Assembly (NCBI RefSeq): GCF_030145145.1
Contig: NZ_JAQYWD010000024.1
Coordinates: 1-64,000 of the forward strand
Direction: 5' to 3'
DNA length: 64,000 nucleotides
Source of the DNA: Desulfobacula sp.
GTDB lineage: Bacteria; Desulfobacterota; Desulfobacteria; Desulfobacterales; Desulfobacteraceae
Numbering within the stretch: the first letter of the stretch is position 1; every line of letters begins with the position of its first letter. Shown piece after piece: positions 198 through 30,603 of this stretch. The position numbers and the translations under genes were made by a program. The notes under the pieces were generated by a model. That model did not search any database and was not told where the DNA came from. It saw only the letters and a program-made list of their open reading frames with translations.

Positions 198-230
198 AGA
201 AAAAGGCAGAGCCATTTATGACCCTGCCTT
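198..230 (-). terminator. Rho-independent terminator of the PEP-CTERM gene
   Basis: On the minus strand AAGGCAG and CTGCCTT form a 7-bp stem around a 14-base loop, followed by a T run. It sits 24 bases past the stop codon of the PEP-CTERM gene, as expected for a single-gene transcript. Confidence 0.75.
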
Positions 231-253: not shown

Positions 254-886
254 CTATTTTTTTCTTCTGCTTACTCCGGCAAGTCCTATTAGGCCAACAC
301 CAAAAAGAAGCATTGTGGCTGGTTCGGGTGTTGGAGCTGGAGTTGAATTTAGTTGAATATTATCGATAAAAGCTGAAGTGTCACCTTGATTACCAATAAT
401 ACCAGCAAAGGTAAGAGAATGTGATCCCGCCGCAAATGCCCCTAGATTAAGTACACTATTGGTCCAAGTTATAGAATTAACAGCTAAGGTATTTAACGCT
501 ACCCCGTCTATGCTTATGGCAATCTGCTGTCCGACGGCATAGTTTGGTCTTAAAGCCCAATAAAAGTCAACCGAGAGGTCCGATGTCGACGACAGCGTAA
601 ATTCTTGAGAAGTGCTTGAAATGCCCTGCAAAAAGGCGAACTGGTTTCCTTCCTGCGCAACCCCTCCCCAAGCCGTATTACTCTTCGAAACACCAGCACC
701 GCCAGTAAATGTCCAGCCAACATCTGGCCCAGTAGGAAGATAGGCATAACCAGTCCCACTGATACCAGAACCAGTCCAACTTTCTTCGAAACCTGCATTG
801 GTAATTGATGTAGCACTTGCCAATCCAGTCACACAGAGTATTAACAATCCAGTAACAAACATTAATAATAATTTTTTCATATTCAT
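254..886 (-). CDS. PEP-CTERM sorting domain protein
   Basis: Exported protein of about 210 residues. It has a hydrophobic N-terminal signal peptide (roughly residues 4-25), a Gly/Ser/Thr-rich beta-strand body, and a C-terminal PEP-CTERM tripartite signal: PEPAT at about residue 189, a short hydrophobic helix, and the basic end SRRKK. In this family the tail is recognised by an exosortase at the inner membrane and the protein is released to the surface or the exopolysaccharide matrix. The body resembles the secreted beta-sandwich domains usual in such proteins, but its ligand cannot be told. Two in-frame ATGs lie at 886 and 880; the second is better spaced from GGAG. The gene stands behind a sigma-54 promoter and a c-di-GMP-I riboswitch. 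No exosortase is visible in the window. Confidence 0.9.
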   Translation of the reverse strand: MNMKKLLLMFVTGLLILCVTGLASATSITNAGFEESWTGSGISGTGYAYLPTGPDVGWTFTGGAGVSKSNTAWGGVAQEGNQFAFLQGISSTSQEFTLSSTSDLSVDFYWALRPNYAVGQQIAISIDGVALNTLAVNSITWTNSVLNLGAFAAGSHSLTFAGIIGNQGDTSAFIDNIQLNSTPAPTPEPATMLLFGVGLIGLAGVSRRKK

Positions 887-904
887 CTCCGATCAATATT
901 CAGT

Positions 905-982
905 TTTTGGCAACTTGGCTATCTTCACCATAAGACCCTTTGACTTTCCGTCCCAGCTTCACAACAGGTTTGGCTTTGTCAC
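905..982 (-). ncRNA. c-di-GMP-I (GEMM-I) riboswitch
   Basis: Read on the minus strand, the leader shows the GEMM-I landmarks in order: CAAACC, a P2 stem capped by the GNRA tetraloop GTGA, the conserved GGGACGGAAAG core, then GGGTCTTA, and the 3' block GATAGCCAAGTTGCC. GEMM-I aptamers bind cyclic di-GMP. The aptamer ends about 15 bases before the GGAG ribosome site of the PEP-CTERM gene, and no terminator stem lies between, so control is more likely at translation. Recognised by motif only, without covariance scoring. Confidence 0.88.
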
Positions 983-995
983 GCTGTATTGAAAA

Positions 996-1009
996 GCAAT
1001 ATTTATTCC
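996..1009 (-). promoter_or_regulatory. sigma-54 promoter (-24/-12)
   Basis: Minus-strand GG-N10-GC with the TTGC form at -12 (GGAATAAATATTGC). Transcription would start near 984, just before the riboswitch. The same 14 bases occur at 16373-16386 ahead of a second riboswitch-like sequence. Confidence 0.7.
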
Positions 1010-1522
1010 TATGATATAATCAAAGTTAGATTATTTTTTAAGGCACTGATTTTATTTATATAAATTTTGGGCAAATAAGTTCCATATTAATATAAAAATA
1101 CAAATACATATAAAAATGAGCAAAAGATGTAATAAATTATGTAAAAAATGTTATAGCATTGTGGTGTTTTTCTTCGTCCTTACCTCAAAGATATATTTTT
1201 CCTGGTCTTACAAAAATTCATCATGAGTAGTTACCCATCATTGTTCTGATCCTCTTTTTTATAATTTTTCAGTATCGTTTTCATAAACCTTTTCAAACTT
1301 TTCTATCTTTAATGTGAAATTCATATATATGGAAACCCGCATGACCAAATGAATCAAGACTCCATTACGTTTAATTGGAGATACAGTAGCCTTGATCAAA
1401 GCCTTAAAAACTGTTTTTAGAAGCTCTTGGAATCAAGATGATATATTACCTTAACAGAGGACACACCAGATCCCATTAAGCTTTTCACATTAGCCAAACA
1501 TCTTTTTGTCCAGGTCTTCTTG
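1010..1522. other. non-coding stretch upstream of the riboswitch gene
   Basis: AT-rich. Apart from the second copy of the direct repeat (1374-1448), I see no coding capacity and no convincing RNA. An enhancer-binding-protein site for the sigma-54 promoter would be expected here, but I cannot point to one. Confidence 0.5.
1374..1448. repeat. imperfect direct repeat, copy 2
   Basis: Second copy of the sequence at 37-111, in the same orientation and with the same internal spacing of about 50 bases between the two conserved blocks. Confidence 0.6.
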
Positions 1523-3249: not shown

Positions 3250-4512
3250 CTAAACGACGAGGTCATTTATTTTTTTAACAGTCTGTACAATATTATCAAA
3301 GCTTATTTCTGTAATATCGATTTGAATTATTGAAAGTGTAATCGTTTTTTGGCCGTTAGGAATTGAATATTGCTCGACAATAGATTTGCTATTTTGTCCT
3401 TTAAACAAGGGGTATACAAGGTAGATTGATAAGCAATTGTATCGCATGGCATACGTGCAAACCTGGTATAAATCTGTCGCTGTAATTTTTAATTTATTAT
3501 TTTCAATGTAGGGGTTTTTGAATTTTGTATCTAAAATATGTGTTACTTCCGATTTATTGTAAACTACAAAATCCGGCTGAATCGGAAAATATTTATTTCC
3601 TGATGAATTTGTAGCAAGATGCTTTGTCGATTGATAAGCAACTCTTACAGGTTGCGAATATATTGATTGCAGAACAGAAAGAAAAAATTTTTCAAACAGG
3701 ATATTTAAAGGAACAATAAAAGCAAGCGTATTTCTGTCTCCCTGGTTCAATCCGGATGTTAAATTCTGAAACAACATACCTGACAGTTCTATTAAAGGTT
3801 GATATTCCTCATTCATACGGTTAAACACGATTGAATCAAAAATTTCCTTGTGCAAAGGTATTAGGTCTACTTCCTCCAGATACGATAATCCTAAGCGTAA
3901 GTGTTTTTTATTTTCAGAATTTGACGACATAAACAGTAGTTTATGGATAGTCGTTTTAATAATTCTGTTAATTAAATTATTGACAGAAAACTCATCGCAC
4001 TGAACCCTAAGATAACCGGGTTTCTGAACTTGCTTTAAAATGGATTGGCCAAATAAGATTTTCCCGCGAACATACAATTGGTCAATATCCTGTGAAATAT
4101 ATTCTCGGTACACATTTCTTTGATGAAGAGATAAAAATCGGTTAACGAATAGTCTGATAATTATTTCTATTAAACTGTCATCGTTTTCTTCAATTGAACT
4201 TTCGTTCAAATCCTTAACATTTAAAAAATCCGACCATAATAATAAACGATATACAAAACCAAGCGATTCTTTGATTTCTTCTTTATTTTTAAGATCTAAA
4301 TTATTTGAATAAATTTTTGGAAGCACTTGAAGGCAGGTGTTTCCTTTAACCAAGCAACCAATGTATTTACTCATGCGGAAGTCACCATTGGCTTCAAGAA
4401 TACAATTTTGAGACCCAATTATTTCTTTAAATGAAAGAATGTTCTCAAAGTGGCTTTCATAACCTGACAAGGAAGTTTTATAATCCTGAAATACAGTTAT
4501 GATTTCCGGCAT
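3250..4512 (-). CDS. mcrC: McrC-like nuclease subunit of a type IV restriction system
   Basis: About 420 residues. An upstream in-frame start at 4566 would overlap McrB by 50 bases. The ATG at 4512, four bases after the McrB stop and with GAGG upstream, gives the usual McrC beginning MPEIITVFQDY. The C-terminal third carries the PD-(D/E)XK nuclease pattern: PDFVVYN, then ILDTKFK. In the McrBC family this subunit docks on the McrB GTPase ring and cleaves DNA with modified cytosines. The intact motif and the adjacent McrB support an active restriction pair. Confidence 0.88.
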   Translation of the reverse strand: MPEIITVFQDYKTSLSGYESHFENILSFKEIIGSQNCILEANGDFRMSKYIGCLVKGNTCLQVLPKIYSNNLDLKNKEEIKESLGFVYRLLLWSDFLNVKDLNESSIEENDDSLIEIIIRLFVNRFLSLHQRNVYREYISQDIDQLYVRGKILFGQSILKQVQKPGYLRVQCDEFSVNNLINRIIKTTIHKLLFMSSNSENKKHLRLGLSYLEEVDLIPLHKEIFDSIVFNRMNEEYQPLIELSGMLFQNLTSGLNQGDRNTLAFIVPLNILFEKFFLSVLQSIYSQPVRVAYQSTKHLATNSSGNKYFPIQPDFVVYNKSEVTHILDTKFKNPYIENNKLKITATDLYQVCTYAMRYNCLSIYLVYPLFKGQNSKSIVEQYSIPNGQKTITLSIIQIDITEISFDNIVQTVKKINDLVV

Positions 4513-4516
4513 AAAC

Positions 4517-6811
4517 TTAGGCCTCGTATATTCCTCTAATTGCTGAAATAAACTCTTTTTTCTCAAGCCTTTTTATCTGTGAAGTTTCGTGGCCTATAAA
4601 TTTATCTGTAATTATAGCGGCGACATTCTTATTGTCGTTGTAAAAATATTCCATCAAAAGTGGGATTATTTTATAATACCAGGTTGTATAAAGTGCTCGA
4701 TAATTAAAAAGCTCAAGAAAGTAGGCGTGTCCGATTCGGTGATCACGATCATAGTATTTTTGTATATTCAAATTCAGTTTTTTAAGAAGCTTTGCAAGGT
4801 CGATTTCATTTTCAATTATATTGTTTCCATTTTTTTCAATAACTTCGTCATTGGGTTCAATCTCACAGAATGTAAACCGCCTTCTTAAAGCAGTATCTAA
4901 AATTGCGATTGAACGGTCTGCTGTGTTCATTGTTCCAATAATATAAATGTTTGATGGTAACTTAAACGGTTTCCTAGAATACGGTAATGTAACACTTAAA
5001 ACATCCCGTTTGTCTTTCTCAATAAGGGTGATTAATTCTCCAAATATTTTCGATATATTTCCCCGGTTTATTTCATCAATTATAAGATAGCATGGGGAGT
5101 TCGTGGTCTTTGATGGGGCCTTTTTGTGGATTTCACCTGTTTTTAAAATCTCACTGATATCGGTAAACTGTATTCGTGTTAAAGGGTATACGGTTTTTAA
5201 CGTAAGCCGTACGCCGCCATTGTATTGGAAAATTTCGTATGGTGTATCAAAATGTTTAATCCACTTCACATCCCTTCTATGGGGATAATGTTTAATGTTC
5301 TTTTCATATCGATATTCTCCGGTAACAATGCCAATATCACGTATTGTGAGCGGACCATCGTAGATGAAAACAATATCCCCTTTACGAATAGTGTTAACAA
5401 ACGTATGAATGCTACTGGCATCGTTAGTTGGTTTCTGAGCAGATGGGCCTCTTTCAGCTATCAGCTTATCATAAATGGAATCATAATCACTGTTTGTAAG
5501 GTCCTCTGAGGCAAACCAGCCAATTGCAATATAATTATTATCAATACAATCATTATAAATATTTTCATCTATCGTTCTTTGACCTAATGAGATTTTGTAA
5601 ACAGTACTGTTTTTTCCGATGTTTGTAATATCTGTTTCATCTGCGTTTTCAGTTAATTGACTTAATGCTGCTCTATTGGATAATTTTTTTATAATCCCAT
5701 CCGCAACCTGATACCGTAAATGTGTTTCATTAGTAGAATCAATATCATCATCGTTAAATACAGGCCTAATACCTTCTACAAACTCTTCATATGAGTAGGA
5801 TTGGTGAAAGGTTATAAACTCAACCCTGTCATCTGAAAGTATGGTTTCGAATGGTTTAAAGACACCACATCTTTCTTTTTCAATATATTCAATTATTCTT
5901 TGGGCTGCATATGTTTTTCCTGTTCCCGGAGGCCCATACAGAATGAGATTGGGGTTATATTCCAATAACTCCTTATACTCTCCATAATCTTCCAAACTAT
6001 CATCTTCCTGGTCCTCATCTTCAGGGGGCAATACTTCTATTTCATCGGCCTTCTTTTTTACATATGATCTCTTTCGTCCCACAATAATATTATCATATAA
6101 TGCCACAGGACTTGTTACTGAAAAATATCCTTTTTCCTGTAAGTCTTCCAAAACAGCACGAATATATTTCAGTTTCTTCGTGGCATTATCTTTTTCTGCA
6201 TACTGCAACAACTCTGTTAAAGTGTAACGTTCATTGTCTTGATTGCGGGATTCATAAAGTTCCCACAATGGAAGGTATGTTTCAAATTTAGTATTATTGA
6301 AAACCTCAATGGATTGAATTTTGTAATCTTTTTTACGATCAATAATCATACGAATATCATGATCTTCATAAGTAGGTGATTCATTTAAACTGTTAAGAAC
6401 GATATAAATATTTCTGGTCTGATTGAAATCTATTTCTTCAACGGCAGGACAATCTTCACTAACAGAGATTTCAAAAAAACCGGTTTCAGCACTTTTGACG
6501 CTTTTATTTATTGTGTTTAAATTTAATTCAAAATATTTTTGCTGAAGGAATTCAGTGGATACTGAGATTGAAGGAAATTCTTTTATTACGTCAAACTCAA
6601 CCATGCCTTCTTCATTAACAGTATTTGGTTTTTCAGAATATTTGCGCACCTTCCACAGTTTCTGCACTTTGGCATTATATATTGGAAATACATAATCCCC
6701 TGGCTTTATAGCATTATACCACTTACTATCTGGCTTGCCTGCTGCATAAAAATTATCATCAAACTGTATAGGATATTTTTTGCTGATTTTACCCAAAAAT
6801 AATCGGCTCAT
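4517..6811 (-). CDS. mcrB: McrB-like AAA+ GTPase with an EVE-like domain inserted in the motor
   Basis: 764 residues. The N-terminal 110 residues look like a small beta-rich reader domain (WYNAIKPGDYVFPIY). Residues about 195-245 resemble a winged helix and are followed by an acidic linker. The AAA+ motor has GPPGTGKT at 293-300, ITFHQSYSYEEFVEG after it, LIIDEINRG at about 576-584, and the McrB signature GTMNTADRSIAILDTALRRRF. Between the Walker A and Walker B blocks, residues about 400-555 form an EVE/YTH-like module (YIAIGWFA, then FVNTIRKGDIVFIYDGP). EVE domains read modified bases in DNA, so the insert may add a second recognition surface. It forms an operon with mcrC. Confidence 0.88.
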   Translation of the reverse strand: MSRLFLGKISKKYPIQFDDNFYAAGKPDSKWYNAIKPGDYVFPIYNAKVQKLWKVRKYSEKPNTVNEEGMVEFDVIKEFPSISVSTEFLQQKYFELNLNTINKSVKSAETGFFEISVSEDCPAVEEIDFNQTRNIYIVLNSLNESPTYEDHDIRMIIDRKKDYKIQSIEVFNNTKFETYLPLWELYESRNQDNERYTLTELLQYAEKDNATKKLKYIRAVLEDLQEKGYFSVTSPVALYDNIIVGRKRSYVKKKADEIEVLPPEDEDQEDDSLEDYGEYKELLEYNPNLILYGPPGTGKTYAAQRIIEYIEKERCGVFKPFETILSDDRVEFITFHQSYSYEEFVEGIRPVFNDDDIDSTNETHLRYQVADGIIKKLSNRAALSQLTENADETDITNIGKNSTVYKISLGQRTIDENIYNDCIDNNYIAIGWFASEDLTNSDYDSIYDKLIAERGPSAQKPTNDASSIHTFVNTIRKGDIVFIYDGPLTIRDIGIVTGEYRYEKNIKHYPHRRDVKWIKHFDTPYEIFQYNGGVRLTLKTVYPLTRIQFTDISEILKTGEIHKKAPSKTTNSPCYLIIDEINRGNISKIFGELITLIEKDKRDVLSVTLPYSRKPFKLPSNIYIIGTMNTADRSIAILDTALRRRFTFCEIEPNDEVIEKNGNNIIENEIDLAKLLKKLNLNIQKYYDRDHRIGHAYFLELFNYRALYTTWYYKIIPLLMEYFYNDNKNVAAIITDKFIGHETSQIKRLEKKEFISAIRGIYEA

Positions 6812-7079: not shown

Positions 7080-8528
7080 TTAACTTAACTCTGTTTTAAG
7101 TTTTTCAATTGCCTGTATTGCAGAATTAAGCTCATTTTTGATTTCATGTTTTTCAAGGTTGTAATGGCTGAATGTGTTTAACACCAGACTTCTGTATTTT
7201 TCAACATCCGTGACCACAGTGACGTCGACACCCCCCTTTATCTCGTTCCAGAAGTCTTCTGTGGTGTAGGAATTTAATTTTGATTTAAAGGACACTTTAA
7301 TTTTGTTTTTTTCACAGTATTTTTGGATAATTTTTTCAAAATATGAGCGGACATAAACAGCGGCAGATTTATAGTCACATAGATGATAGTGAACTTTTGC
7401 CTTCTGGAGCAAATTTCCTCCATCAATGATCAAGGGCATTTCATATCCACTTTTTGTTGTCTGGGCATAGAATTCCAATGTTTGCCAAAGGCTTTGGTCA
7501 ATAAATCCTTTGGCGTATTCAAACCATGGTTTGTCATAAGTGCTTAGGATAATCTGGTAATCACTAAAGTCATTTTCCAAAATTTCTAATAGTGGCATCC
7601 GGTTTGAAATATCAAGACCGATAAAAATATCATCCAGAAATAAAAGTTTATGATTAATACCCTGAGGGTGCCGTTTAATCATCCCCATATAAATTGAGAT
7701 CGCAATGGCAGATAACCGAGCTTCGTTTAAAAACAAGTGGGGTTTTTGAACATCATGTCCAGCAAATGTTACACGAACACGAACGATTGCATTCTCAAAA
7801 TAAGTATATTCTTTGTTGGGCCTCACTTGCGGAAAGGAAAGTGCAATTTCCATTTGGTCATCGAATTTTTTAAGAATAGGGGCTGAATGTTTCAAGATAT
7901 AATCCGGGCTTTGGTCATTAAACAACTCACCAAATGCTTCATTGAATACTTTCAACGCGGAATTGACAGCGGCCTTTTTCTTGGTAATATTGAATTCCCT
8001 ACCGGTGGGTTGTGCTATAAGTTCTTCCAGGTCTGTATATAATTCACCCAGCTCTTTTCCTTGGGTTAGCACAAATTTAAAATGTTTGAGTACTCCGTTT
8101 ACAAGTAGCGGGAAAAGATTAATCTCATCATCTTTTTTCAGATGGTGAATGTCCAGAAGATGTTTATATGTCAAAAAGCTTTTGAGCTTGTTGGCGTCCC
8201 GAATACTTGTGTCGCCAGCATCCCCAAGATCTTTGCCGGTTTGGGTAAACGAATATTTGCCTGCCGAATGGTTGCCCTGGAAGTCAGGCTTGAAATCAAT
8301 CTTTATGCCGGTATTTCCCTTTTCTCCATCGTCAATAAAAACATTTTCAAGTTCGGAAAGATCGATATCCTCTATTGAAGCCTGGAAAAAATCTTTCAGG
8401 GCAAAATAAAGTGAACTTTTCCCACTCCCGTTTTCACCATATATGAAAAGATTTTTCCTTTTAACTTGGATTGTGTGGGTTCCCATAAAGGCTTTATAGT
8501 TTGTAATTTCAATCCTATCTATTTTCAT
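7080..8528 (-). CDS. RecF/SMC-like AAA ATPase of the candidate three-gene defence system
   Basis: 482 residues. The start KIDRIEITNYKAF is typical of the RecF/SbcC-like class. Walker A is YGENGSGKSS at about residues 30-39. An ABC-signature-like block is LNEARLSAIAISIYMG near residue 270, and Walker B is LLFLDDIFIGLD near 295. Instead of a long coiled-coil there is a helical C-terminal third of unknown fold. Last gene of a row with the PLD-helicase and the type IIG-like protein, 28 bases behind the latter, so co-transcription is likely. ATPases of this kind often act as sensors or effectors beside restriction genes. I do not recognise a named system. Confidence 0.8.
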   Translation of the reverse strand: MKIDRIEITNYKAFMGTHTIQVKRKNLFIYGENGSGKSSLYFALKDFFQASIEDIDLSELENVFIDDGEKGNTGIKIDFKPDFQGNHSAGKYSFTQTGKDLGDAGDTSIRDANKLKSFLTYKHLLDIHHLKKDDEINLFPLLVNGVLKHFKFVLTQGKELGELYTDLEELIAQPTGREFNITKKKAAVNSALKVFNEAFGELFNDQSPDYILKHSAPILKKFDDQMEIALSFPQVRPNKEYTYFENAIVRVRVTFAGHDVQKPHLFLNEARLSAIAISIYMGMIKRHPQGINHKLLFLDDIFIGLDISNRMPLLEILENDFSDYQIILSTYDKPWFEYAKGFIDQSLWQTLEFYAQTTKSGYEMPLIIDGGNLLQKAKVHYHLCDYKSAAVYVRSYFEKIIQKYCEKNKIKVSFKSKLNSYTTEDFWNEIKGGVDVTVVTDVEKYRSLVLNTFSHYNLEKHEIKNELNSAIQAIEKLKTELS

Positions 8529-8556
8529 AGAATAATGTTTCCCTGAGGTTCTGATT

Positions 8557-11500
8557 TCATCGTTTCAATGCGTCTTGTATGGTCTTAACCACAGGAATAC
8601 TATCCAGGGTTTCAATATGGTTCCGAACAAGGTGGTCCGGGTCATAAAGCCGATCAAACTCTTTTTTGATAACGATCAATTTTTCATTATCCGTCATACT
8701 GTTTGATATGGGTGATAGGGTGCCAAGGTGTGTATTAATCTCTTTTTTTGCTTTTTTCACGTCATCCTGAAAATAGAGTTCATACACCAGACCATCAATA
8801 ATTTGTTCAAAATATGCTGCTTCAAGTTTCTTTTCGTTTTTAATGAGAAAGGGTATAAAATCAACCAGTATTTCAAGCGGCAACCGGTCATCAGAATCAA
8901 TTTGAGGCACTGGAAGTTTTTCAACAAACATGGGTTTATACTCAAAATACCCTCCATTTCGGGTGACTCCAAGTGAACGAATATAATAATCACTAACTTT
9001 TGAATTTAATATTGCCAGCAAGTATTTTGGTTGATCACTTGTAATCATATTACTTGGTGCATTGATAAAGACATCAGGGTCTGCCAAGGCAAATTGGGCA
9101 GATAATGCCAGATTTCCCCAAACAATTTTTTGTTTTTCAAATTCCCGATAATATGATGCCGCACAACGTTGCAGCGCATACCACTCATACCGAATTCCTG
9201 TTTCTGATTTATTTCTGCTGGAAAGTTTTGTCTTATGTTTTTCAAGGTATTGGTAAAGATAATGATATCTCTTTTTAAACTCTTCTTCTGCCAGGTTTGA
9301 AGCTCCGCTGACCGATGCATCTTCATGAAGCGGGAAATGCCAGGGGATAAACAACAGCCATGTCTTTTTAAAATTCACTTGGTAGCGTTTGATATCTCTA
9401 CCACTGAGGACTGGCTTAAGTACTTTTGAATTTTTTTGATCCTGAGATTCTAATTTAAGTTTTGTTTTTTTATCTATAATGAAAGCCTCATTATAGCCAG
9501 TAACTATACCCCTAAAAAGAGAAGCGTCCCACTTTTCAAGCGGGACACCAATTTTTTCAATCTGTTTTTTTACAGCAAAATCATCTTTTTCAACAATGAT
9601 CCAGGAGTTACTGTTTAAATCATTCAAAATAATTTGACAGTCTTCTACCATTTTTTCAAAATTGGTGTGTTGGGTAATTGCCTTATCTGCCTTGCAAGCC
9701 AATGTGGATTTTCTGTTTTTTGCTTTTTCAAAAAGCAAAATGTTTGTATCCACTGTTGCAGTTTCAAATACATGGAAACTTGAAAAATCGATCAGCACCA
9801 GAGGATTTGTTTTTATGTTGAAAAATGACCTCAATTTTTTGCCATAATTGGCCCGCATCCATTTGTTTGAGGTTATAAAACATAATCCTCCGCCGTTTTT
9901 TAGCAAGCGATATCCTTTTTCATAGAACAGACAATAGATATCTCCGGTTTTGGCAAAAGTTTCAAATTGTTGCTTTTCCAGATCCTTCTGGATTTGCTGA
10001 CCACTGAAATTCTGGATCTGGACATAAGGGGGGTTGCCGATGATGATGTCAAAACCATCATTTTGATCCCAGACTTCAGAGAAAAATAGTTTAAAGTCAA
10101 AATCGACTTTATAGCCTGATGCGGATTTTGAATTAAACCCTGCCATAGATTCTGAATCTTTTAAATAACCATGAAGCTTTTGATTAATTTTTTCTTTTAG
10201 CTTGGCCCTTTCTTTTTGGTCTTTACACTGATAAACTTCTTCTTTTAATTTTTCAATCTGGGAAAGCCAAGCAGGGCGGTATCGATCATTAAGCCCTATA
10301 AGGGAATTACCCTGGACGATTTTATAATCCAGGTTGGGCAGCGCTTTGATGGAGTTGTAATCCTCTTCATCCACCACTAAAGAAAGCCACAATCGCAGCC
10401 GTGCAATATCAATAGCACTGGCATCATAATCCACCCCATATATGCTTTCATGGATGGCATGCCGTTTATAGTCATATGCTGTTTGATTGTTTTTGGTATA
10501 GGGTGCCAAAACCTGCCGAGTATTGACGATTTCATGGAGCATGCCCACGGGGAATGCTCCTGAACCGATGGCAGGATCGCATATTTTAATATCCGCCAGC
10601 AGGGTATCTATCTTTTTGGCGTACTTTTGAACACTAACCGGCATTTTAAAATGATGCGCCGATGTCTCTTTTCCCTTTTCAATAACCAGACTATCATTTT
10701 CAAGATAAAGATGACCTTTTCGGATAAGGGATTCAATATCTTTTTTGGGTACGCTGATCTTGTCTTGTTCTGGCTTGGGAAAAAGGGACTGCTGGCTTTC
10801 ATTGGCAAACAGAGAATCTTTGGGCTCTTCAAATACAGTCGTTGATGTGGTCAATTTCCCATAATCATTCAAAGCATTGTCCAGAAAATGAATCAGACTT
10901 TCCTGGCACATATAATGGACGATTTCCCTTGGAGTATAAAAGGCACCTTTGCTTTTTCGCTCCGTAACATCGAGCATATTTTCAAAGACTTTTCCCAACA
11001 TCTCCGGGTCAACCGCTACTTCTTTCTCAAGGGGTTCGTCTTCTTTTATCGTAAAATTATATCGGTCAAACACATCCAGAATGCCGGTGCCAAGATCCCC
11101 AAATTTATTTTTTTCATCGTTGGTAAAAATTGTATTGGGGATATGGATGTCCGTGGTCTCCCAGTCGTAATCCGGTTCGAACAAACCGCCGTTTAAAAAA
11201 GGGATCTTGCAGCCAAGGCGTGGATAATATCCTTTGTTCTTCTGGTCTATTCGCTCCTTGGCCAGGGCTTCGTAGAAAAGATATTGAAGGCTGTCAGTAT
11301 AAAAGCTGCAGTCCTTTTCAAGCGTGGTATTTAGTTGGTGTCGTAGAAACTTTTTATCTCCATTTCCCCAGGAGGCAGACTCGGGGACCCCAAGCCAACC
11401 TTTTTTCTGAAGGAAATATAAAAAAACGATCTGTCCCAAAAGTTTTTTTGAAAACCTGTAAACATTATTTGGAAAGTGCTGTTCGTCTTTTTTAAAATGC

Positions 11501-12150
11501 GGCTCACCTACTAAGTGATCCGTTAAAAGGAGAAACAAATCTTTATATTGGTTAAAAAAATCTTTGGTGACTTTTTCAATGCTAAAGGCATTTTCAATAT
11601 CTTCAATGGTGGGCCTGGCGTAGTCCATGACCAGGACGTCCAGGAGCTGGGACTGGGCGGTATGACTGTTTTCATGTTCTCCCACTAGAAAAGAATATCG
11701 TTTGGCAGGTGTCAGCTCTTTTTTAGTTTTTACTTTTCCTATTTCATCCTGATAAGCCACAGGTTCAGTTTTAATAAAGGAAAACCGCCAGTCGGATCCC
11801 ATGTCCTCTTTGGCATAAAAAGCAATCAGGGAATATTCTTTTTCAAATGCTCGCAACCGGTTGACTGCAAAATTTCGAAGTGCTGTCCTTGCTCTGTCCA
11901 GTTTGGCAAGGCTTTTGACCTCAACTACTAAAAGATCCATTTCAAGATGATTCGGATCGACATATTTCCCCACTCGCCAGTATTGAGTGATATGCTCTTT
12001 AAAGGCATGGGGAATTAAATTGCCGCTGTAATGCCGTCCCCTGGGTTCATACTCGTTTAATAGATTGCCAAGAAAATGTTCATAGGTTTCCCTGTCAAAA
12101 GCTTTTCCAAAAATCGATTCAATGTGTTTTGCGGCCTGAGTTTTATCCAT
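8557..12150 (-). CDS. type IIG-like restriction-modification protein (Eco57I class)
   Basis: 1197 residues. The N-terminal region carries a PD-(D/E)XK-like pattern (Asp72, Glu77, Lys79 in MDLLVVEVKS), suggesting a nuclease fused to the methylase. The amino-methyltransferase core has FYTPREIVHYM, the SAM-binding motif DPAIGSGAFPVGML and the catalytic NPPYVQIQ, all typical of N6-adenine methylases of the gamma class. The last 350 residues should hold the target recognition domain. Such fusions both methylate and cut, but here the neighbouring helicase and ATPase suggest a larger system. No PglZ, BrxC or DrmB homologue is present, so it is neither a complete BREX nor a DISARM locus. Confidence 0.87.
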   Translation of the reverse strand: MDKTQAAKHIESIFGKAFDRETYEHFLGNLLNEYEPRGRHYSGNLIPHAFKEHITQYWRVGKYVDPNHLEMDLLVVEVKSLAKLDRARTALRNFAVNRLRAFEKEYSLIAFYAKEDMGSDWRFSFIKTEPVAYQDEIGKVKTKKELTPAKRYSFLVGEHENSHTAQSQLLDVLVMDYARPTIEDIENAFSIEKVTKDFFNQYKDLFLLLTDHLVGEPHFKKDEQHFPNNVYRFSKKLLGQIVFLYFLQKKGWLGVPESASWGNGDKKFLRHQLNTTLEKDCSFYTDSLQYLFYEALAKERIDQKNKGYYPRLGCKIPFLNGGLFEPDYDWETTDIHIPNTIFTNDEKNKFGDLGTGILDVFDRYNFTIKEDEPLEKEVAVDPEMLGKVFENMLDVTERKSKGAFYTPREIVHYMCQESLIHFLDNALNDYGKLTTSTTVFEEPKDSLFANESQQSLFPKPEQDKISVPKKDIESLIRKGHLYLENDSLVIEKGKETSAHHFKMPVSVQKYAKKIDTLLADIKICDPAIGSGAFPVGMLHEIVNTRQVLAPYTKNNQTAYDYKRHAIHESIYGVDYDASAIDIARLRLWLSLVVDEEDYNSIKALPNLDYKIVQGNSLIGLNDRYRPAWLSQIEKLKEEVYQCKDQKERAKLKEKINQKLHGYLKDSESMAGFNSKSASGYKVDFDFKLFFSEVWDQNDGFDIIIGNPPYVQIQNFSGQQIQKDLEKQQFETFAKTGDIYCLFYEKGYRLLKNGGGLCFITSNKWMRANYGKKLRSFFNIKTNPLVLIDFSSFHVFETATVDTNILLFEKAKNRKSTLACKADKAITQHTNFEKMVEDCQIILNDLNSNSWIIVEKDDFAVKKQIEKIGVPLEKWDASLFRGIVTGYNEAFIIDKKTKLKLESQDQKNSKVLKPVLSGRDIKRYQVNFKKTWLLFIPWHFPLHEDASVSGASNLAEEEFKKRYHYLYQYLEKHKTKLSSRNKSETGIRYEWYALQRCAASYYREFEKQKIVWGNLALSAQFALADPDVFINAPSNMITSDQPKYLLAILNSKVSDYYIRSLGVTRNGGYFEYKPMFVEKLPVPQIDSDDRLPLEILVDFIPFLIKNEKKLEAAYFEQIIDGLVYELYFQDDVKKAKKEINTHLGTLSPISNSMTDNEKLIVIKKEFDRLYDPDHLVRNHIETLDSIPVVKTIQDALKR

Positions 12151-12192
12151 GGGTGTCAGCTTAATTTGTCGTATTAAATATGTTTATGTACC

Positions 12193-15100
12193 TTATTGAT
12201 TTCCTGCTTTTACCTGATAGGCAGAAAGAATGATCTCCTTTTTGTACTGATGCGGCTGCTGTGATATTGATGACTCCGAATCGACCACACGAATATGCTT
12301 GCGTAGAATTTTCAGCATAACCAATGGATCAAGTGTCTTTTCAAACGCTCGCTTAATGGTCATTGCAGTTTTCTTTGCTAGCGTTCCCTGCCGTATCATT
12401 CGCTTTATTCCTTCAAGAAATTCTTCATCCGAGTCTGTAAATTTTTTACATTGCTTAAAATTTCTTTCCCTCAACCGTGTTTCAATATAATCAACATTAC
12501 TTCTTCCCCCTTTTTTTTGCAGGTCTGGTTCGATTTCCTGGAGGGTGTCTTGTTCAAAACACAATTTGTTGATTTCAAGAAGCTTATAATAGTCTTCCGG
12601 GATTGATTGTCGCTTGGTATCAGGCGAGCACTCGGCTATCCCTGCTGCATCGAAAAAAGTGATTTCTCTGGATCTTTTCCCGGTATTCAAATAAAATTTT
12701 TTTAACTTTCCCAGCCGGAAAAAGGTAATCAACTGGTTGGCGGAAAGGTTTTCTCCTATAGCGCCTGATCTTGCCTTTTTGGGCAGCTTTTTAACTCTTT
12801 CAAACAGAGCAGGGTCCTTGTCTCTTAGTTCCCGCATCATTTTTAGGTATTTAAGCTCTGAATCAACAGGTTCCATTTCACCGGTATAGGTGTTTTTACG
12901 GGTTAATGAATCAAACAGTTCCTGACTTCCAATCTCTTCACCATCAGATAGGTATCTTGCATCCTCTCCCAGAATATGGTGAAACATTTGTATTTTATTC
13001 GTGATGTTGGCCTCAAGCCCTAAATGGGCATCAGATTGTGTGGTTGGGAAGAAATTAAAAATAAAAATTTTTGAATGTAATGACCCCAGACGATTTACCC
13101 GGCCTGAACGCTGCAAGACCCTTGTGGGGTTCCAAGGCAGATCATAATTGATCAGAATGTTACTGCGATGAAGGTTTATCCCTTCTGAAAGTACATCTGT
13201 TGTAATCAGGATCTGAATATTATTCTGACTGTTTTTTTGATTTGGGTCATAGTTAGCTTTGATGATGTCTTTAGCAATAGCAGGAGAAAGGAAGGAATTG
13301 TCATCTTGAAAATAACCACCCTTGCTACTAAATGATAACACTTTGTTCAGAAATATTTGGCTAAGTTTTTCATGTAAATAATCCGCTGTCTCTCTTGATT
13401 CTGTGAAGAGGATCAACTTTTTCTTTTTTAATATTTTATCATTTTCCAATGAATGAATAAGACTTTGAATTTTGGGATCATGTTCTACAGGTCCCCATAA
13501 TTCCAACAGCCTATTCAAAAGCATCAGGTCGTGTTGCAGGTCCTTATAAAATATTGGGTTGAAGTCTTCTGCCAGATACTTTAAAACTTTTTCCTGCTCA
13601 ATAAAGTTATTCAATTTTTCAAGGTCATCATTATCCAATAGGTCATATACATCCACTTTTTTGCTGATATATACGGTACCCTTTTCAAACATTTCAATGA
13701 ATTTTTTATAGGAATCAGTAAATCGGCCTAACGTTTTTTTAAAGGCATAAAAACTACTTTCAAGCCGCTTGATAAGGATGCCCTTCATAAAACCGCCAAC
13801 ATTCTTTTGCTGCTGTTTTTCAAATTCACTGAGACGTTTTTTCCCTTCATAATACAAAAGTGGTGTGTATCGGGAATAACGAAACAATGCTAAAAGAGTT
13901 ATTGTTTCATTGAATATGAATTCCAGCTGTCCTTCAAATTCATAGATTATTTTTACTGGGTCTTGCATTTCAGGGAACTTGAGTCCTTGATTTTCGACAT
14001 CCTCATTAAAAAAAGTGGTGACATCACTTCGCGTGCGTCTGACCATCACATGCTTTAAAATTTTTCCCCGTATTTCTTCTGACACTTCTAAAATGGTCTG
14101 CTGATATTCAGAATCTTTTTTATCAATATGCTTAAAACGCTTACGTAGACTGTTGAAATATTTTTCAAGATTTCGAATGCCGGGTATTGTGCTTCTTTTT
14201 GGAGATTGAAAAAGCTTGAGCTGAGCAAAAATATCATCAATGGTATTGTTCATTGGAGTGGCTGTCACCAGAATCACTTTTTTACCCCGGCAGATATCCA
14301 ATAGGTCCGCATAGGATTGCGTAGCCTCATTTCTAAATCGATGAGCCTCATCAACTACAATATAATTAAAGCGATCTAAACCGAATTGAATAATTCGGTC
14401 CAGTTTGCCCAAAGATTCCACTTTTGCAGGTACCCGAAAATCGTGTAGACTTTCTTCCCAGTAACTTTTAATCATAGGAGGACAGATAACTAAAATACGC
14501 CCTTTTAATTGCTGAAGCAATTGCGCCGCAATAAACGTTTTACCCAATCCGACGACATCGGAGAGAAAAACCCCGTTATATTCTTCCAGTTTTTTTAAAG
14601 CTTGAACAACTGCCTGCTGTTGATATTGCAAATTCATAAAACCGTCAGGAAGAAAAGTATCTATTTCATCGGTAAGATTAATATCCTCCTGCATATATTC
14701 ATATATTAATTTTAAATAAAGTTCATAAGGGGTGATTTGATTATTCAACCATGTTTTGTTTTGAACGGTGTCAACAAATTCCTCGGAAATATCAACAGAC
14801 TGACTCCAAAGGGTCTCGAACTGGTCCAAAGCAAATTCAACATCCCTTCTTTGGCGCAATTCCACGTTAAATTCTCGATTGGCCACAAGTCCGGAATAAG
14901 AAAAATTACTGGAACCGGTAATCACAAAACCATAATCTCTGTCATCAGGTTCAAAACGACCGATATATACTTTTGCATGAATGTTTTTTGAAGGATATGC
15001 GCGGATTTCGAGTTTTTTCCCGTTCCCACCATTTTGAATATCTAATTCTTTATTTTTACAGTCAGATTTTAAAAATTCAATAAATTTTCTAAGCCCCATC

Positions 15101-15435
15101 TCCAATTTTTCATCCTGATCAGTTGTATTTTCAACCTCATTTATTAGATCATTTTGAAACTGTTTTTTAACCTTATAATGGGAATTAAAATCAAGAACGG
15201 ACTGATTTTGATAGGTCTGAATTGTTTGATAAGCGTTGGAATCCAATCCAAGACCGACTAAAATTCTTGTCTTATCAATGTTTTCTATGGATTCATATAA
15301 TTGATAAAAACCGCTTGATCTAAAATAGCCAACGAGAACATCAAATAATTGAGTATCATCTAAAGTAGCTTTGAAACGATCAAGTAAAGTTTGACCATTA
15401 TCATTAGTAAAAAATGTCAGATCAGAAGAATTCAA
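12193..15435 (-). CDS. PLD-nuclease / SNF2-type helicase fusion
   Basis: 1080 residues. Residues about 20-185 form a phospholipase-D-like nuclease domain with one HKD half-site (HAK at 153-155 and GSSNFS at 174-179). A superfamily 2 helicase follows: GLGKT at 296-300, VVDEAHRFRN at 361-370, TATPMNN, and the C-terminal helicase motif SGRVNRLGS. The last 250 residues are unassigned. The start codon is TTG, behind GAGGACAA. First gene of a row with the type IIG-like protein and the ATPase, separated by only 42 bases from the former. The combination suggests ATP-driven tracking along DNA coupled to cutting. Confidence 0.88.
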   Translation of the reverse strand: MNSSDLTFFTNDNGQTLLDRFKATLDDTQLFDVLVGYFRSSGFYQLYESIENIDKTRILVGLGLDSNAYQTIQTYQNQSVLDFNSHYKVKKQFQNDLINEVENTTDQDEKLEMGLRKFIEFLKSDCKNKELDIQNGGNGKKLEIRAYPSKNIHAKVYIGRFEPDDRDYGFVITGSSNFSYSGLVANREFNVELRQRRDVEFALDQFETLWSQSVDISEEFVDTVQNKTWLNNQITPYELYLKLIYEYMQEDINLTDEIDTFLPDGFMNLQYQQQAVVQALKKLEEYNGVFLSDVVGLGKTFIAAQLLQQLKGRILVICPPMIKSYWEESLHDFRVPAKVESLGKLDRIIQFGLDRFNYIVVDEAHRFRNEATQSYADLLDICRGKKVILVTATPMNNTIDDIFAQLKLFQSPKRSTIPGIRNLEKYFNSLRKRFKHIDKKDSEYQQTILEVSEEIRGKILKHVMVRRTRSDVTTFFNEDVENQGLKFPEMQDPVKIIYEFEGQLEFIFNETITLLALFRYSRYTPLLYYEGKKRLSEFEKQQQKNVGGFMKGILIKRLESSFYAFKKTLGRFTDSYKKFIEMFEKGTVYISKKVDVYDLLDNDDLEKLNNFIEQEKVLKYLAEDFNPIFYKDLQHDLMLLNRLLELWGPVEHDPKIQSLIHSLENDKILKKKKLILFTESRETADYLHEKLSQIFLNKVLSFSSKGGYFQDDNSFLSPAIAKDIIKANYDPNQKNSQNNIQILITTDVLSEGINLHRSNILINYDLPWNPTRVLQRSGRVNRLGSLHSKIFIFNFFPTTQSDAHLGLEANITNKIQMFHHILGEDARYLSDGEEIGSQELFDSLTRKNTYTGEMEPVDSELKYLKMMRELRDKDPALFERVKKLPKKARSGAIGENLSANQLITFFRLGKLKKFYLNTGKRSREITFFDAAGIAECSPDTKRQSIPEDYYKLLEINKLCFEQDTLQEIEPDLQKKGGRSNVDYIETRLRERNFKQCKKFTDSDEEFLEGIKRMIRQGTLAKKTAMTIKRAFEKTLDPLVMLKILRKHIRVVDSESSISQQPHQYKKEIILSAYQVKAGNQ

Positions 15436-16161: not shown

Positions 16162-16372
16162 TTATAGAAATGTCAAAATTTTTTCGCAAACTCAGGGTAA
16201 ACACCTATGAAATATTTTTCTTAGAAATATTCGAAGTGTTACTATAATTTCATAATTTAGAACCTTAATGTAATAGTTACATCAATCTAAATTTTAACAA
16301 AAAATTTATTATTTTTTGCAAAACCTTTAATAGCAATATACCCAGAAATATATTACTTAAATATCTAAAAAT

Positions 16373-16386
16373 GGAATAAATATTGC
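16373..16386 (+). promoter_or_regulatory. sigma-54-type promoter, second copy
   Basis: TGG at 16372-16374 and TTGC at 16383-16386 give the GG-N10-GC spacing. The 14 bases are identical to those ahead of the riboswitch at 905-982. It precedes a truncated riboswitch, so it is probably the relic of a duplicated control region. Confidence 0.55.
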
Positions 16387-16410
16387 ATATAGACTAATGA
16401 AAGATACTAT

Positions 16411-16456
16411 AACCAAACCTGTTGAGAAGCTGGGACGGAAAGCCACGGGTTAAGAC
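16411..16456 (+). ncRNA. truncated c-di-GMP-I riboswitch
   Basis: Contains the 5' part of a GEMM-I aptamer: CAAACC, a P2 stem, GGGACGGAAAGCC and GGGTTAAG. The 3' half with the GGTAGCC-like block is missing; the sequence turns into unrelated AT-rich DNA at about 16457. Very close in sequence to the riboswitch at 905-982. Unlikely to bind c-di-GMP normally. Confidence 0.65.
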
Positions 16457-16656
16457 AAAAATCCATTTTGGATGCATTTATACATATCAAAACAACACAA
16501 ATATTCGTAATTATTGACTTTTTATAATATTGGTATTAACATATATGATAATAGTTGTTTTTCTTTAAAACGCCACTACTTGTAATTGATTAAGAATGAG
16601 GGCAATCTTAATTTTAATAAAAAGGCAATCAAAAAGAATTTTGCATCATTTTTTTG

Positions 16657-23742: not shown

Positions 23743-25371
23743 CTATTGATTTTCGACAGAATAATATTCATAGGTTTGTTTACCTTTAATTATAGCTGAT
23801 TTGCGTTCAATAAACCCATTATCAACCGCCATTGAAATATGATTTTTAGCAGCCGTTTTGCCCAACCCGGCAAGATCCATATAAACATTTGCCAGAGCAT
23901 TGGTTGATTCAGCATAACCGCCCATATCTGTTAACGCCTGAGTAACTGTATTGGCTTTTTCTGCCTCTTCCGGCGTCATCTGTTCTTCAACTCGTTCAAA
24001 ATGAAGGTGTCTTGTCATCCTGATCAGAAAGGGATCAAACATCTTAAAGTTGTTGCTCTTCTCATGCCTCACCCGGATAACGGGAATTTGTGCCACTCTT
24101 TGGCCTGTAACCTTTCCATTGACATCAATATCAGTTATCCGATTTTCTGCTATGAACTCACGTTTTAAGCTGATCCTGTTCCGGGTCCAATCATTGATAG
24201 CAGTGGAACCACGGTAATTATCCCCGTCTTTTTTGTCGTGGTGAATGACAATAGGGGTGCATTTTACTTGCTTGCAAACCCGATCAATGGCATCTAAAGC
24301 AGGCCGCATATCTGCTGAATTATTTTCATCGCTGGCGCCGGTAAAGCTGATGAGCGGATCGATGACAAGAATATCAATTTTGACGTTTTGTTCATGTTCA
24401 ATGAGTTGGATATATTCAACCAGAAAATCACAGAATGATTCATCAAGAAACACTTCGCCGGTAATGGTTGTGTCATCGTACTGAGACAGGAAAAATATGT
24501 TTTTTAATCCTTCCTCAAAACTACTGGACCCTTTACACATTAGTTTCAAACGTTGGTACGTTGTGACCCTACCATTTTCGGACCCCATAATAAGGGTAGC
24601 TCTTTTCTGAGGTATAACGAAATCACCAAGAAAGCCGTTTAAGGAGTCTTCAAGATTGTTTCTAAAAGAGGCAAGAATTATTACCAGAAATAGGACAAAC
24701 ATGGATTTACCGATACCACCGGCAGCGTGAATCAAGACAGATTCATTCATTGAAAACAAACCGACGATTAACCATTCTATTTCCATTGGTTTTGCGATAA
24801 TATCAGCACCAGATAGATAGGTTATCTCTCTTTTGCTCAATGTTCTTCTGGTAACACCTGCTAATAATTCCTTACCTAAATCCCGGTCTTTGATGAAACC
24901 ATCAGTGGCAGACTCTTTGTGAAGAAAGTATTTGATCCCGCCGTGTGCGTGGGAATGGATACAGGGTTTCTGCTCTTTTTTATTAAAATAAAGTTTTGCT
25001 TTATTCCTTCCTAGTTCTGTTTCCTGTGGGTCGCATAGGGTGGCCTGGTCGTATTTTTTTAAATCCTTCAGCACATCCCCGACGATTACAGGACCAAATT
25101 TATCAAAGACTATGACATCATCCTTGAATAAATCCCTGTGTTTCCCACCCTCACATCTCGCTTGAACTGTTTTCTTTGCGGCAGCAATGGCCAGACCAAC
25201 ACCGGCCTTTGTTGCAGCCTCAACGAGTTTGGGAGTTTCAGTTTCAATATATTTTTTTTTAATCCTGTGTTGTTCAGGCTCAATTTGAATCTTTGCGGCC
25301 TGGATTAATACTCCGAACTTGTTAATTTCAATAGGGCTTGAGGAAGGTATTTGTTCGGTATCCATTAACAT
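23743..25371 (-). CDS. RepA-like replicative helicase of the element
   Basis: 542 residues. The N-terminal part ends with IHSHAHGGIKYFL, a motif shared with phage primase-helicases. The RecA-like ATPase domain has AAGGIGKS at 216-223, ATLIMGSENG, and DILVIDPLISF as Walker B, then PIVIHHDKK and YRGSTAINDWTRN. This order is that of the RepA/AAA_25 group (hexameric helicases of plasmids and phages). The C-terminal 80 residues look like a winged helix. Start overlaps the stop of the primase gene (TGATG). Probably unwinds the origin of the excised element. Confidence 0.82.
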   Translation of the reverse strand: MLMDTEQIPSSSPIEINKFGVLIQAAKIQIEPEQHRIKKKYIETETPKLVEAATKAGVGLAIAAAKKTVQARCEGGKHRDLFKDDVIVFDKFGPVIVGDVLKDLKKYDQATLCDPQETELGRNKAKLYFNKKEQKPCIHSHAHGGIKYFLHKESATDGFIKDRDLGKELLAGVTRRTLSKREITYLSGADIIAKPMEIEWLIVGLFSMNESVLIHAAGGIGKSMFVLFLVIILASFRNNLEDSLNGFLGDFVIPQKRATLIMGSENGRVTTYQRLKLMCKGSSSFEEGLKNIFFLSQYDDTTITGEVFLDESFCDFLVEYIQLIEHEQNVKIDILVIDPLISFTGASDENNSADMRPALDAIDRVCKQVKCTPIVIHHDKKDGDNYRGSTAINDWTRNRISLKREFIAENRITDIDVNGKVTGQRVAQIPVIRVRHEKSNNFKMFDPFLIRMTRHLHFERVEEQMTPEEAEKANTVTQALTDMGGYAESTNALANVYMDLAGLGKTAAKNHISMAVDNGFIERKSAIIKGKQTYEYYSVENQ

Positions 25372-26171
25372 CAGGCACCTCCCGGGATATATAAGGGGTC
25401 AGGTCTTCGTTGTGTAATATTCGAACCCATCAGGTTTGCCCCAGCCACAAAATCCAAACGTTCTGGGCTGAATACTGCCGTGTCAAAAATAGTGCGTGGT
25501 AGCAATGCCCCGGATCGAGAAATCTTGATATAGCCATATCCTGCAAGCCACAAACGATGAAACAAACCCTTAGCGAATCGCCCCAGGTCTTTCCCGTTTT
25601 TAACGAGAAAGTAAAGGTGAAACCCGTCACCCTGACCCACGAGTTCATCATCATCCCGATAGATACAGGATGACGTTGAATACGTTAGCACCTTGGGAAT
25701 GGTTGCGAACCCAGGACAGACGGAATCGATAATTTTGATAACTTCCTGGTAATCATACACCGGCTGGCCATCATCAGGATCATAGTCAATCATGGCCAGT
25801 GCCGGTGAAGGGTAAGTAAAATATTTTGTTGTCCTAGTGATTGTTCCCGGCTGATCGTTGAAATTTGCAGTGGAAACAATGTTTGTTTTGTCATGTCCGC
25901 AAACCCCATGCGCAATGGCTTGATCCAAACCGGGTCGTTTGAGATATTCCGGAAATTTCCTAAATTTCAAGGTGACTGTTCGGGCTGTTCCCGATGCCAT
26001 GTAACATTGGCTTGAATCCTTTGTCACATTTCCATCTGGGTCAACTGAAATTTTTTTTGTGAGAATCCCATGATCTTTGGTAAATTCAGTAAACTTGAAA
26101 ACTTCATCTGTCCGGTCCTGTATAACATCAAGAACGGCTTGACTATAAAAGCTGAAAGCGTTACTATCCAT
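25371..26171 (-). CDS. archaeo-eukaryotic-type primase-like protein
   Basis: 266 residues. Contains LAMIDYDPDDGQP (acidic metal-binding motif), GQGDGFHLYFLVKN (the His motif of the AEP fold) and ERLDFVAGANL near the C-terminus. These are features of primases in phages and integrative elements. It is translationally coupled to the helicase gene, which supports a primase-helicase pair. ATG at 26171, behind AAAGGG. A leader hairpin (CCCGG/CCGGG with a short T run on the opposite strand) lies near 26200-26232. Confidence 0.75.
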   Translation of the reverse strand: MDSNAFSFYSQAVLDVIQDRTDEVFKFTEFTKDHGILTKKISVDPDGNVTKDSSQCYMASGTARTVTLKFRKFPEYLKRPGLDQAIAHGVCGHDKTNIVSTANFNDQPGTITRTTKYFTYPSPALAMIDYDPDDGQPVYDYQEVIKIIDSVCPGFATIPKVLTYSTSSCIYRDDDELVGQGDGFHLYFLVKNGKDLGRFAKGLFHRLWLAGYGYIKISRSGALLPRTIFDTAVFSPERLDFVAGANLMGSNITQRRPDPLYIPGGA

Positions 26172-26415
26172 AGAAACATTACCCTTTCCTGCCTGCCCGG
26201 TATCGCCACCAAAGCTGCCGGGCTTTTCTTATATTGGGATACATGCTTAACTCTAAACAGACAGATCGTTTTCTGTGATTATAGTCACGCATTGGAGCGA
26301 TCCCTTTTGATGAATTGCCTCACCCAGGCAGGTATGAACCGGGTGTCCCATCGGAATCTGTCGAAAAGCAGACAGGCAATTTCTGAAATACTTCATTTGA
26401 TGAATAATTGAGATT

Positions 26416-28080: not shown

Positions 28081-28132
28081 ATTTTGAGTATCCTCTTATG
28101 ACTGCTGGCCGCCCAACATTGCAGGCATTTTT

Positions 28133-28468: not shown

Positions 28469-28683
28469 ACCATTACTCCCCTTTCGGTGGCAATAGAATC
28501 GGCAAGCTCTTGTAATTTGAGATCAAGATTTTTTGATGGTTCTTTAGAACCGCATAAAATGTTGCACAGGTAAGTGGAAGTGATCCCCACTTTATTTGCA
28601 ACGGCAACCCGGGGAAAATTTTTTAAAATTTTTGCATAAGAAGGAACGGCGTTAAAAGTGTTAAGCTCTGTGATAATAGACAT
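28465..28683 (-). CDS. Cro/CI-like helix-turn-helix regulator
   Basis: 72 residues. The sequence FPRVAVANKVGITSTYLCNILCGSKEPSKNLDLKL is a classic HTH_XRE-type fold. First gene of the leftward cluster. It may control the element together with the excisionase-like gene, which overlaps it by four bases (ATGA). Confidence 0.7.
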   Translation of the reverse strand: MSIITELNTFNAVPSYAKILKNFPRVAVANKVGITSTYLCNILCGSKEPSKNLDLKLQELADSIATERGVMV

Positions 28684-30433: not shown

Positions 30434-30603
30434 CCGCCCCTCCACACCTCAAAATATTTTACACATATTTTACACGTTTTTTAGGTTAAATCAAGTGAAA
30501 ACGAATGATGAGAAGTGAATATTATAAACACAAAAATATCTCAAGATTCTTTTATTTAAAGGCAAATATGGATAAAATGTGAAATTATGTGAAGTTTAAA
30601 AAA

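Follow-up and report, generated by a model that had tools for sequence, protein, structure and literature searches.

A predicted sigma-54 promoter and a c-di-GMP-I aptamer in series before a PEP-CTERM gene of Desulfobacula sp.

The PEP-CTERM gene, its aptamer and its promoter box

The window, that is, the whole stretch of 64,000 nucleotides that was analysed, carries on its minus strand a gene for a PEP-CTERM protein, preceded by a c-di-GMP-I (GEMM-I) aptamer and, further upstream, by a -24/-12 box (Table 1). ATG 880 appeared more likely to be the start codon than ATG 886, because the GGAG at 890–887 gives it a spacing of 6 nt. With this start, the leader measures 104 nt, the gene begins 25 nt after the aptamer, and 114 nt separate the box from the start codon. 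A terminator-like hairpin follows the stop codon, and therefore the gene looks like a single-gene operon.

The product scored 31.9 bits against PF07589 (cut-off 20.7) and 24 bits against TIGR02595 (cut-off 16), and the PEP-CTERM motif was the only Pfam match above the cut-off. An HpiC1-like match (E 0.015) fell below it, a phmmer comparison with solved structures gave two matches, both at E 0.5 (PelA), and the single-sequence structure model was poor (mean pLDDT 48.1). The preliminary description had named the product a PEP-CTERM matrix protein. The PEP-CTERM half of that name stands, the signal being above the cut-off, whereas "matrix" derives from the sorting signal, with no other Pfam domain and a poor fold beside it. 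A contig scan for relatives of the product returned 19 loci; most alignments were confined to the sorting tail, and the longest spanned residues 134–210. The entire gene and its control region are bracketed by imperfect direct repeats of about 110 nt, at 2–113 and 1339–1450 on the plus strand, whose pieces are 71–85% identical at a constant spacing of 1337. Part of a third copy was seen close to one end of contig C28 (62905–62951). The bracketed region is possibly a duplicated or mobile unit.

Table 1. Coordinates of the features discussed in the text
Feature	Position	Strand	Basis or remark
Terminator-like hairpin after the PEP-CTERM gene	203..230	minus	scan
PEP-CTERM protein, 208 aa	254..880	minus	PF07589, TIGR02595; mechanical ORF from 886 is 210 aa
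Putative Shine-Dalgarno GGAG	887..890	minus	6 nt before ATG 880, 15 nt after the aptamer; sequence and spacing
c-di-GMP-I (GEMM-I) aptamer	906..984	minus	RF01051, 48.0 bits; covariation in 24 related aptamers
-24/-12 (sigma-54) box GGAATAAATATTGC	996..1009	minus	predicted +1 at 984; identical 14 letters in G035
Weak candidate enhancer TGGAACTTATTTGCCCA	1068..1084	minus	57 nt upstream of the box; de novo motif, low score (10.1)
Second -24/-12 box TGGAATAAATATTGCA	16372..16387	plus	same 14 core letters as the window box
Truncated GEMM-I aptamer (5' part and P2; P3 lost)	16402..16459	plus	R1, 42.3 bits
Phage-integrase gene	29183–30445		between the aptamer locus and the hydrogenase genes
Hydrogenase subunits	31216–33729
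PAS-kinase-receiver-Hpt protein	34169–37009
REC-GGDEF protein (cyclase)	37009–37926
Contig-end PEP-CTERM genes	C28:684, C10:1004, C86:263, C8:83102, C41:175980, C25:17577

The match to RF01051 (cmscan) covered model positions 1–87 and was not cut off. Its 48.0 bits (E 2.6e-6 for the 64 kb window) compare with a gathering score of 35 bits, and the match clearly exceeds chance. The preliminary description had proposed a GEMM-I aptamer ending close to the ribosome site and had named an Infernal search with RF01051 as the check; both the aptamer, at full model length, and its nearness to the GGAG, 15 nt 3' of it, are confirmed. Alignment of 24 related aptamers (20 preceded by a box at no more than 120 nt; L102, L121 and L137 lacking one; the kind of L003 included) showed 11 of 18 pairs altered on both sides and 90.9% of cells paired. 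None of 500 shuffles was as high on either measure, and sliding the partner strand destroyed the covariation. With R1, the model built from these 24 aptamers, the window aptamer reached 82 bits, being itself part of the model. It carries a GUGA loop in P2. On our reading of the alignment it has mismatches at U19-U30 (P2) and at A45-A72 and C43-A73 (P3/P1 arm), and the pair taken as G21-C46 is swapped to C-G in the RF01051 alignment.

The box, AGGAATAAATATTGCT at 1010–995 on the minus strand, has GG at 1009/1008 and GC at 997/996, with the GG-N10-GC spacing exact, and shares 9 of the 12 informative letters of the sigma-54 -24/-12 consensus, TGGCACRNNNNTTGCW. By the usual counting, which we assume here, the C at 996 is position -12, and the predicted +1 is then the first base of the aptamer model. 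As a string taken alone the box is weak: 32 sites within the 64 kb scored at least 9, and GG-N10-GC occurred at chance frequency (333 observed, 340 expected). Its location relative to the aptamer was tested because the string itself is not rare, and the candidacy of the box rests on that location, on recurrence and on conservation. In a genome from another genus of the family (G035), the promoter–aptamer stretch was 79% identical over 160 nt, with the GGAATAAATATTGC core kept, and there the block precedes a PEP-CTERM frame with one in-frame stop. No sigma-70-like promoter was seen 5' of the aptamer in a simple scan of the minus strand (150–1500). The -24/-12 promoter of the preliminary description thus gains from the exact spacing, the conservation in G035 and the recurrence before 29 of 110 aptamers described below, while its 9 of 12 letters would be weak alone.

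Further upstream, a de novo search in 42 regions before boxes, which include some homologous ones, gave a motif with a log likelihood ratio of 105.6 (100.7 in a rerun), compared with 52.6–64.2 in 12 shuffled sets. A control set of 42 regions before box-less aptamers gave 77.1 with a different motif. This points weakly to an enhancer motif upstream of the boxes, of which the window may hold one low-scoring copy.

Related elements and system parts in the source genome

RF01051 gave seven matches in the source genome, five of them above the cut-off. With R1 at E < 1e-3, the number of elements rose to 12; five had a box, and four of these five stood before PEP-CTERM genes. The element on contig C39 has a better box than the window copy, TGGCATGAATATTGCT, and precedes another PEP-CTERM gene. 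On C41 the box is followed by a degenerate aptamer, and on C10 by an aptamer reduced to little beyond its 3' part, each before a PEP-CTERM gene. The truncated element at 16402–16459 (C86:16402) scored 27 bits with RF03167, below the cut-off of 59, and 30 nt of it are 97% identical to the window aptamer; no PEP-CTERM gene was found directly behind it. The seven remaining R1 elements had neither a box scoring at least 9 nor a PEP-CTERM gene directly behind. Three of the five elements with box and aptamer are thus degenerate or truncated, so the coupling of promoter and aptamer may be dispensable. The plain reading of these copies would be a cassette that has been gained and is decaying within one genome.

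The genome holds 18 PEP-CTERM genes, and by our reading 12 of them have a box scoring at least 9 within 400 nt upstream, where we estimate about two by chance. The sigma-54 promoter class therefore looks general for the PEP-CTERM genes of this genome, the riboswitch being apparently an addition to a few. Six of the 18 are no more than about 1.1 kb from a contig end, against about 0.6 expected (our own estimate, on a feature noticed after the fact), and these genes may adjoin repeats that break the assembly. Elsewhere in the aptamer set, a GEMM-I aptamer (L001/L020, C15:18386–18572) starts at most about 40 nt after the tail of a PEP-CTERM gene, with a terminator-like stem, judged by eye, behind it.

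One exosortase was found (PF09721, 230 bits), and for rpoN there were two incomplete PF04552 matches, located at ends of C84 and C10. NtrC-like regulators are numerous: TIGR02915, the PrsR family, gave 115 matches, many to the receiver part only, and the best of them reached 426.5 bits against a cut-off of 502.6; for PrsK (TIGR02916) the best was 102.4 bits against a cut-off of 300. Strict PrsK/PrsR regulation was rejected, both families being below the cut-off. This bears on the activator and not on the sorting signal, as such regulators belong to a part of the PEP-CTERM systems.

A route from H2 to matrix or surface composition, by way of the cyclase operon in the same window, had also been suggested. 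The genes for hydrogenase, kinase and cyclase do exist, but they lie 30–36 kb from the PEP-CTERM locus with a phage integrase between, and the genome gave 15 GGDEF matches, of which the REC-GGDEF cyclase is a single one. Neither the gene neighbourhood nor the genome count of GGDEF proteins revealed a specific link between this cyclase and the window riboswitch, and the route is not upheld. The window also carries an McrBC-like pair (PF10117 and an AAA protein) at 3250–6811 on the minus strand, with large ORFs of the same strand beyond it (7080–15435), perhaps a defence island, and phage-type genes at 23743–30445.

Recurrence in the family and the phylum

The box count was made on all 110 GEMM-I matches of the family set, which came from 59 genomes. 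A box scoring at least 9, a threshold chosen after the score of the window site was known, with its -12 C located 9–30 nt before the aptamer, was present in 29 of the 110. The expected number was 0.41, the mean of Markov-simulated upstream regions, which never exceeded 3 in 300 runs; the antisense strand gave 1. At a score of at least 10, the numbers were 22 observed and 0.06 expected. A phylum sample of 90 loci from other families (30 returned and 60 picked among the best-scoring matches listed, hence biased to strong aptamers) had a box 9–45 nt before the aptamer in 20 cases, for 0.69 expected. The placement of sigma-54-type boxes immediately upstream of GEMM-I aptamers is a real pattern, one that extends beyond the family.

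The genes behind the aptamers could be classified at 75 of the 110 family loci, by simple patterns and a mechanical gene call; at 23 loci the gene extended past the retrieved sequence, and at 12 none was called. L107 is one of these 12, despite the PEP-CTERM frame, interrupted by one in-frame stop, that comes after it. L144, a 62-aa frame with a PEP-CTERM-like stretch, was counted as non-PEP-CTERM. A PEP-CTERM gene followed the aptamer in 16 of the 22 loci with a box within 120 nt and in 4 of the 53 without (Fisher P 2.8e-8); seen from the other side, the box was present in 16 of 20 PEP-CTERM cases and before 6 of 55 other genes. Four of the 16 boxes sit farther up, 36–119 nt from the aptamer, and with the 9–30 nt limit the proportions were 12/16 and 8/59 (P 5e-6). 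The proteins were clustered, without signal and tail, because related rows inflate this test. The 20 aptamer-led PEP-CTERM proteins formed 19 clusters, and so many unrelated proteins have come to stand behind the control unit. The association persisted when each cluster contributed a single row: a box preceded 15 of 19 PEP-CTERM clusters and 5 of the 36 others (P 3e-6). An exosortase is present in every one of the 11 family genomes that combine box, aptamer and PEP-CTERM gene, and in 33 of the 59 overall.

The partner genes differed in the phylum sample. Twenty-nine of its aptamers had a box within 120 nt; behind these, the complete gene could be read in 16 cases, and 13 genes were incomplete or could not be located. 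None of the 16 had an accepted PEP-CTERM tail, one pattern match being rejected by eye. The pattern flags at L212, L214, L228 and L238 of this sample were dismissed, the printed tails showing no sorting signal. CxxCH, the cytochrome motif, appeared in the printed tails of two genes behind a box and aptamer. PEP-CTERM is the usual partner of box and aptamer in the family and not in the phylum sample.

Two further arrangements were seen in the family. GEMM-I aptamers precede proteins with VPxP-type tails in three genomes (G058:C1, about 4150299–4151365; G051:C6, about 1309362–1310503; G047:C1, about 5738966–5740091), in each case with a weak, incomplete exosortase match (profile positions from about 93 to 252) no more than about 1 kb away; a riboswitch may here govern a second sorting system. 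In G025 (L032/L082, C389:11053–11285), three tandem aptamers stand before a single 116-aa protein with a signal-like start.

Possible mechanism, relation to known systems and meaning

Position 11 of the model is a G in the window aptamer, and was taken as G20 of Vc2. The places aligned to G20, A47 and C92 hold G, A and C; the Vc2 numbering is our assignment, checked against the residue names in the accessible part of PMC9049102. The form of GEMM-I that was modelled and crystallised with 3',3'-cGAMP, as far as the available text of PMC6274999 goes, is G20A. Because the window copy has a G at this place, c-di-GMP is likely to be its ligand. In the family, the base taken as position 20 was a G in 24 of 29 aptamers with a box and in 72 of 81 without, a rough pattern that includes some misreads. 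The reverse assignment, 3',3'-cGAMP as in some Geobacter GEMM-I RNAs, can point to the A found in five of the 29 box-preceded aptamers, one of which (L130) looked by eye like a misread. Against the G of the window copy and the G20A form of PMC6274999, it seems very improbable for this locus. Four box-preceded aptamers with an A at the presumed position 20 (L124, L144, L041 and L049) might sense cGAMP.

We propose that the locus is a single-gene operon whose product is a surface protein sorted by exosortase and whose expression is under two locks in series, a sigma-54 promoter and a c-di-GMP aptamer, and we give this reading a probability of about 0.68. In this model, an enhancer-binding ATPase would open the sigma-54 RNA polymerase, transcription would start at about 984, and the mRNA would begin with the aptamer. 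Binding of c-di-GMP would then alter either how the ribosome site, 15 nt 3' of the aptamer, is used or how long the mRNA lasts, and the protein would be made only if the activator and the c-di-GMP level both permit. The two layers of control had already been suggested in the preliminary description. The sequence, the presence of RpoN and exosortase in the genome, and the recurrence agree with them, the use of sigma-54 being the presumptive part. The weak box, the mismatches of the aptamer, the leader folding described below, the three decayed sibling elements, the four of 20 PEP-CTERM genes without a box within 120 nt and the low PrsR/PrsK scores all count against the two-lock reading.

How the aptamer would act is suggested by its position. 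The scan revealed no terminator between the window aptamer and its gene, and a terminator-based switch was rejected for this copy. In 17 of the 20 PEP-CTERM cases the aptamer ends 7–37 nt before the start codon, which leaves little room for a terminator; attenuation is therefore less likely in these cases than an effect on translation or on mRNA lifetime. Terminator-like stems were noticed by eye in other GEMM-I copies of the source genome (L001, L002 and L007). Folding of the 20 leaders, free or with the aptamer pairs forced, revealed no consistent ribosome-site switch (5 up, 7 down and 8 within 0.05), and the predicted fold of the window leader had the stability expected of shuffled sequences (z -0.05). 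As to direction, we lean only slightly towards c-di-GMP turning expression on rather than off, on biological grounds, because the product is presumed to be a matrix or surface protein.

The most serious competitor keeps both elements and moves the point of action: c-di-GMP bound to a 5'-terminal aptamer would mainly shield the mRNA from decay that depends on the 5' end, or change early transcription, rather than gate the ribosome site. The predicted +1 is the first aptamer base here and lies 1 nt before it in L003, the -12 C is 9–30 nt before the aptamer in 29 of 110 family cases, and both the missing terminator and the folding result fit this idea. The closeness of aptamer end and start codon in 17 of 20 PEP-CTERM cases would be unneeded for a stability switch, and we hold this alternative to be unlikely, though ahead of the others. 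A relic aptamer without regulatory effect, leaving the sigma-54 promoter alone to matter, would be in keeping with the degenerate or truncated siblings (C41, C10 and C86:16402) and with the mismatches of the window copy. That copy is nevertheless of full length, above the cut-off and at 82 bits with R1, which was built with it, and its group covaries, which makes a relic improbable. Poorer still are the chances that the box is a fortuitous match and that transcription comes from sigma-70 or from upstream: 32 boxes of equal or better score in 64 kb would allow it, whereas the recurrence at the same spacing, the conservation in G035 and the lack of a sigma-70-like site upstream oppose it. The two-lock reading thus remains the one that we prefer.

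Among the organisms with which the locus was compared, Methylophaga nitratireducenticrescens is a gammaproteobacterium, and Geobacter belongs to the same phylum as the source genome. Haft et al. (2006; PMC1569441), in the text accessible to us, described a -24/-12 box with the sigma-54 motif before 99 of 167 proteobacterial PEP-CTERM genes, mostly in single-gene operons with long upstream regions, as is the case here; the 114 nt from box to start codon are within their range (up to 221). That text describes no riboswitch, whereas the window locus has one, and the low PrsR/PrsK scores are unlike the systems of PMC1569441. Their motif 1 (17 nt, ending in TTTACA, 32–92 nt before the box) has no TTTACA counterpart at that distance in the window, by eye only. 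The pepA gene of Aquincola tertiaricarbonis (PMC9850573) is likewise a PEP-CTERM gene behind GG/GC motifs, with a start mapped by primer extension and RpoN1-dependent transcription; its upstream region is about 85 nt, and c-di-GMP is unmentioned in the accessible text. In M. nitratireducenticrescens GP59 (PMC12530212, 2025), three c-di-GMP riboswitches neighbour PEP-CTERM genes and a further one neighbours a VPLPA-CTERM gene, the same pairing as here, with no mention of sigma-54 in the part available. GEMM-I RNAs of the same aptamer family precede cytochrome and surface-protein genes in Geobacter and relatives and are partly cGAMP-specific (PMC2700814, PMC2996986, PMC6456294); the accessible portions of these articles and of PMC8835794 state no link to sigma-54 or RpoN. 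A sigma-54 regulon survey (PMC12316311) mentions a riboswitch once and exosortase never in its accessible text. A sigma-54-driven c-di-GMP riboswitch before a PEP-CTERM gene was not found in the open literature, judged by titles and the beginnings of abstracts among the hits listed, most subscription papers lying outside this scope. What is known is the sigma-54 box with PEP-CTERM and the c-di-GMP riboswitch with PEP-CTERM; what appears to be new is all three stacked.

Sigma-54 promoters are silent until an activator works, and a riboswitch acts afterwards. Combined, they would subject a surface protein to an AND gate, and the combination appears to have arisen again and again with proteins that are not related to one another. 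In our judgement there is an even chance that sigma-54 promoter and 5'-terminal GEMM-I aptamer together form a two-key cassette, recurrent and transferable in the phylum, which has been placed before many unrelated surface proteins (PEP-CTERM proteins in the family; other genes, some cytochrome-like, elsewhere), with copies gained and decaying in one genome. The intact, degenerate and truncated versions in that genome are ready test constructs, and the recurrence before many unrelated surface proteins makes double control testable as a general design. If the reading is true, the composition of the cell surface would depend jointly on an activator signal and on the level of c-di-GMP, which would give a bioinformatic handle on the signals that determine the extracellular matrix in sulfate reducers and related bacteria of sediments.
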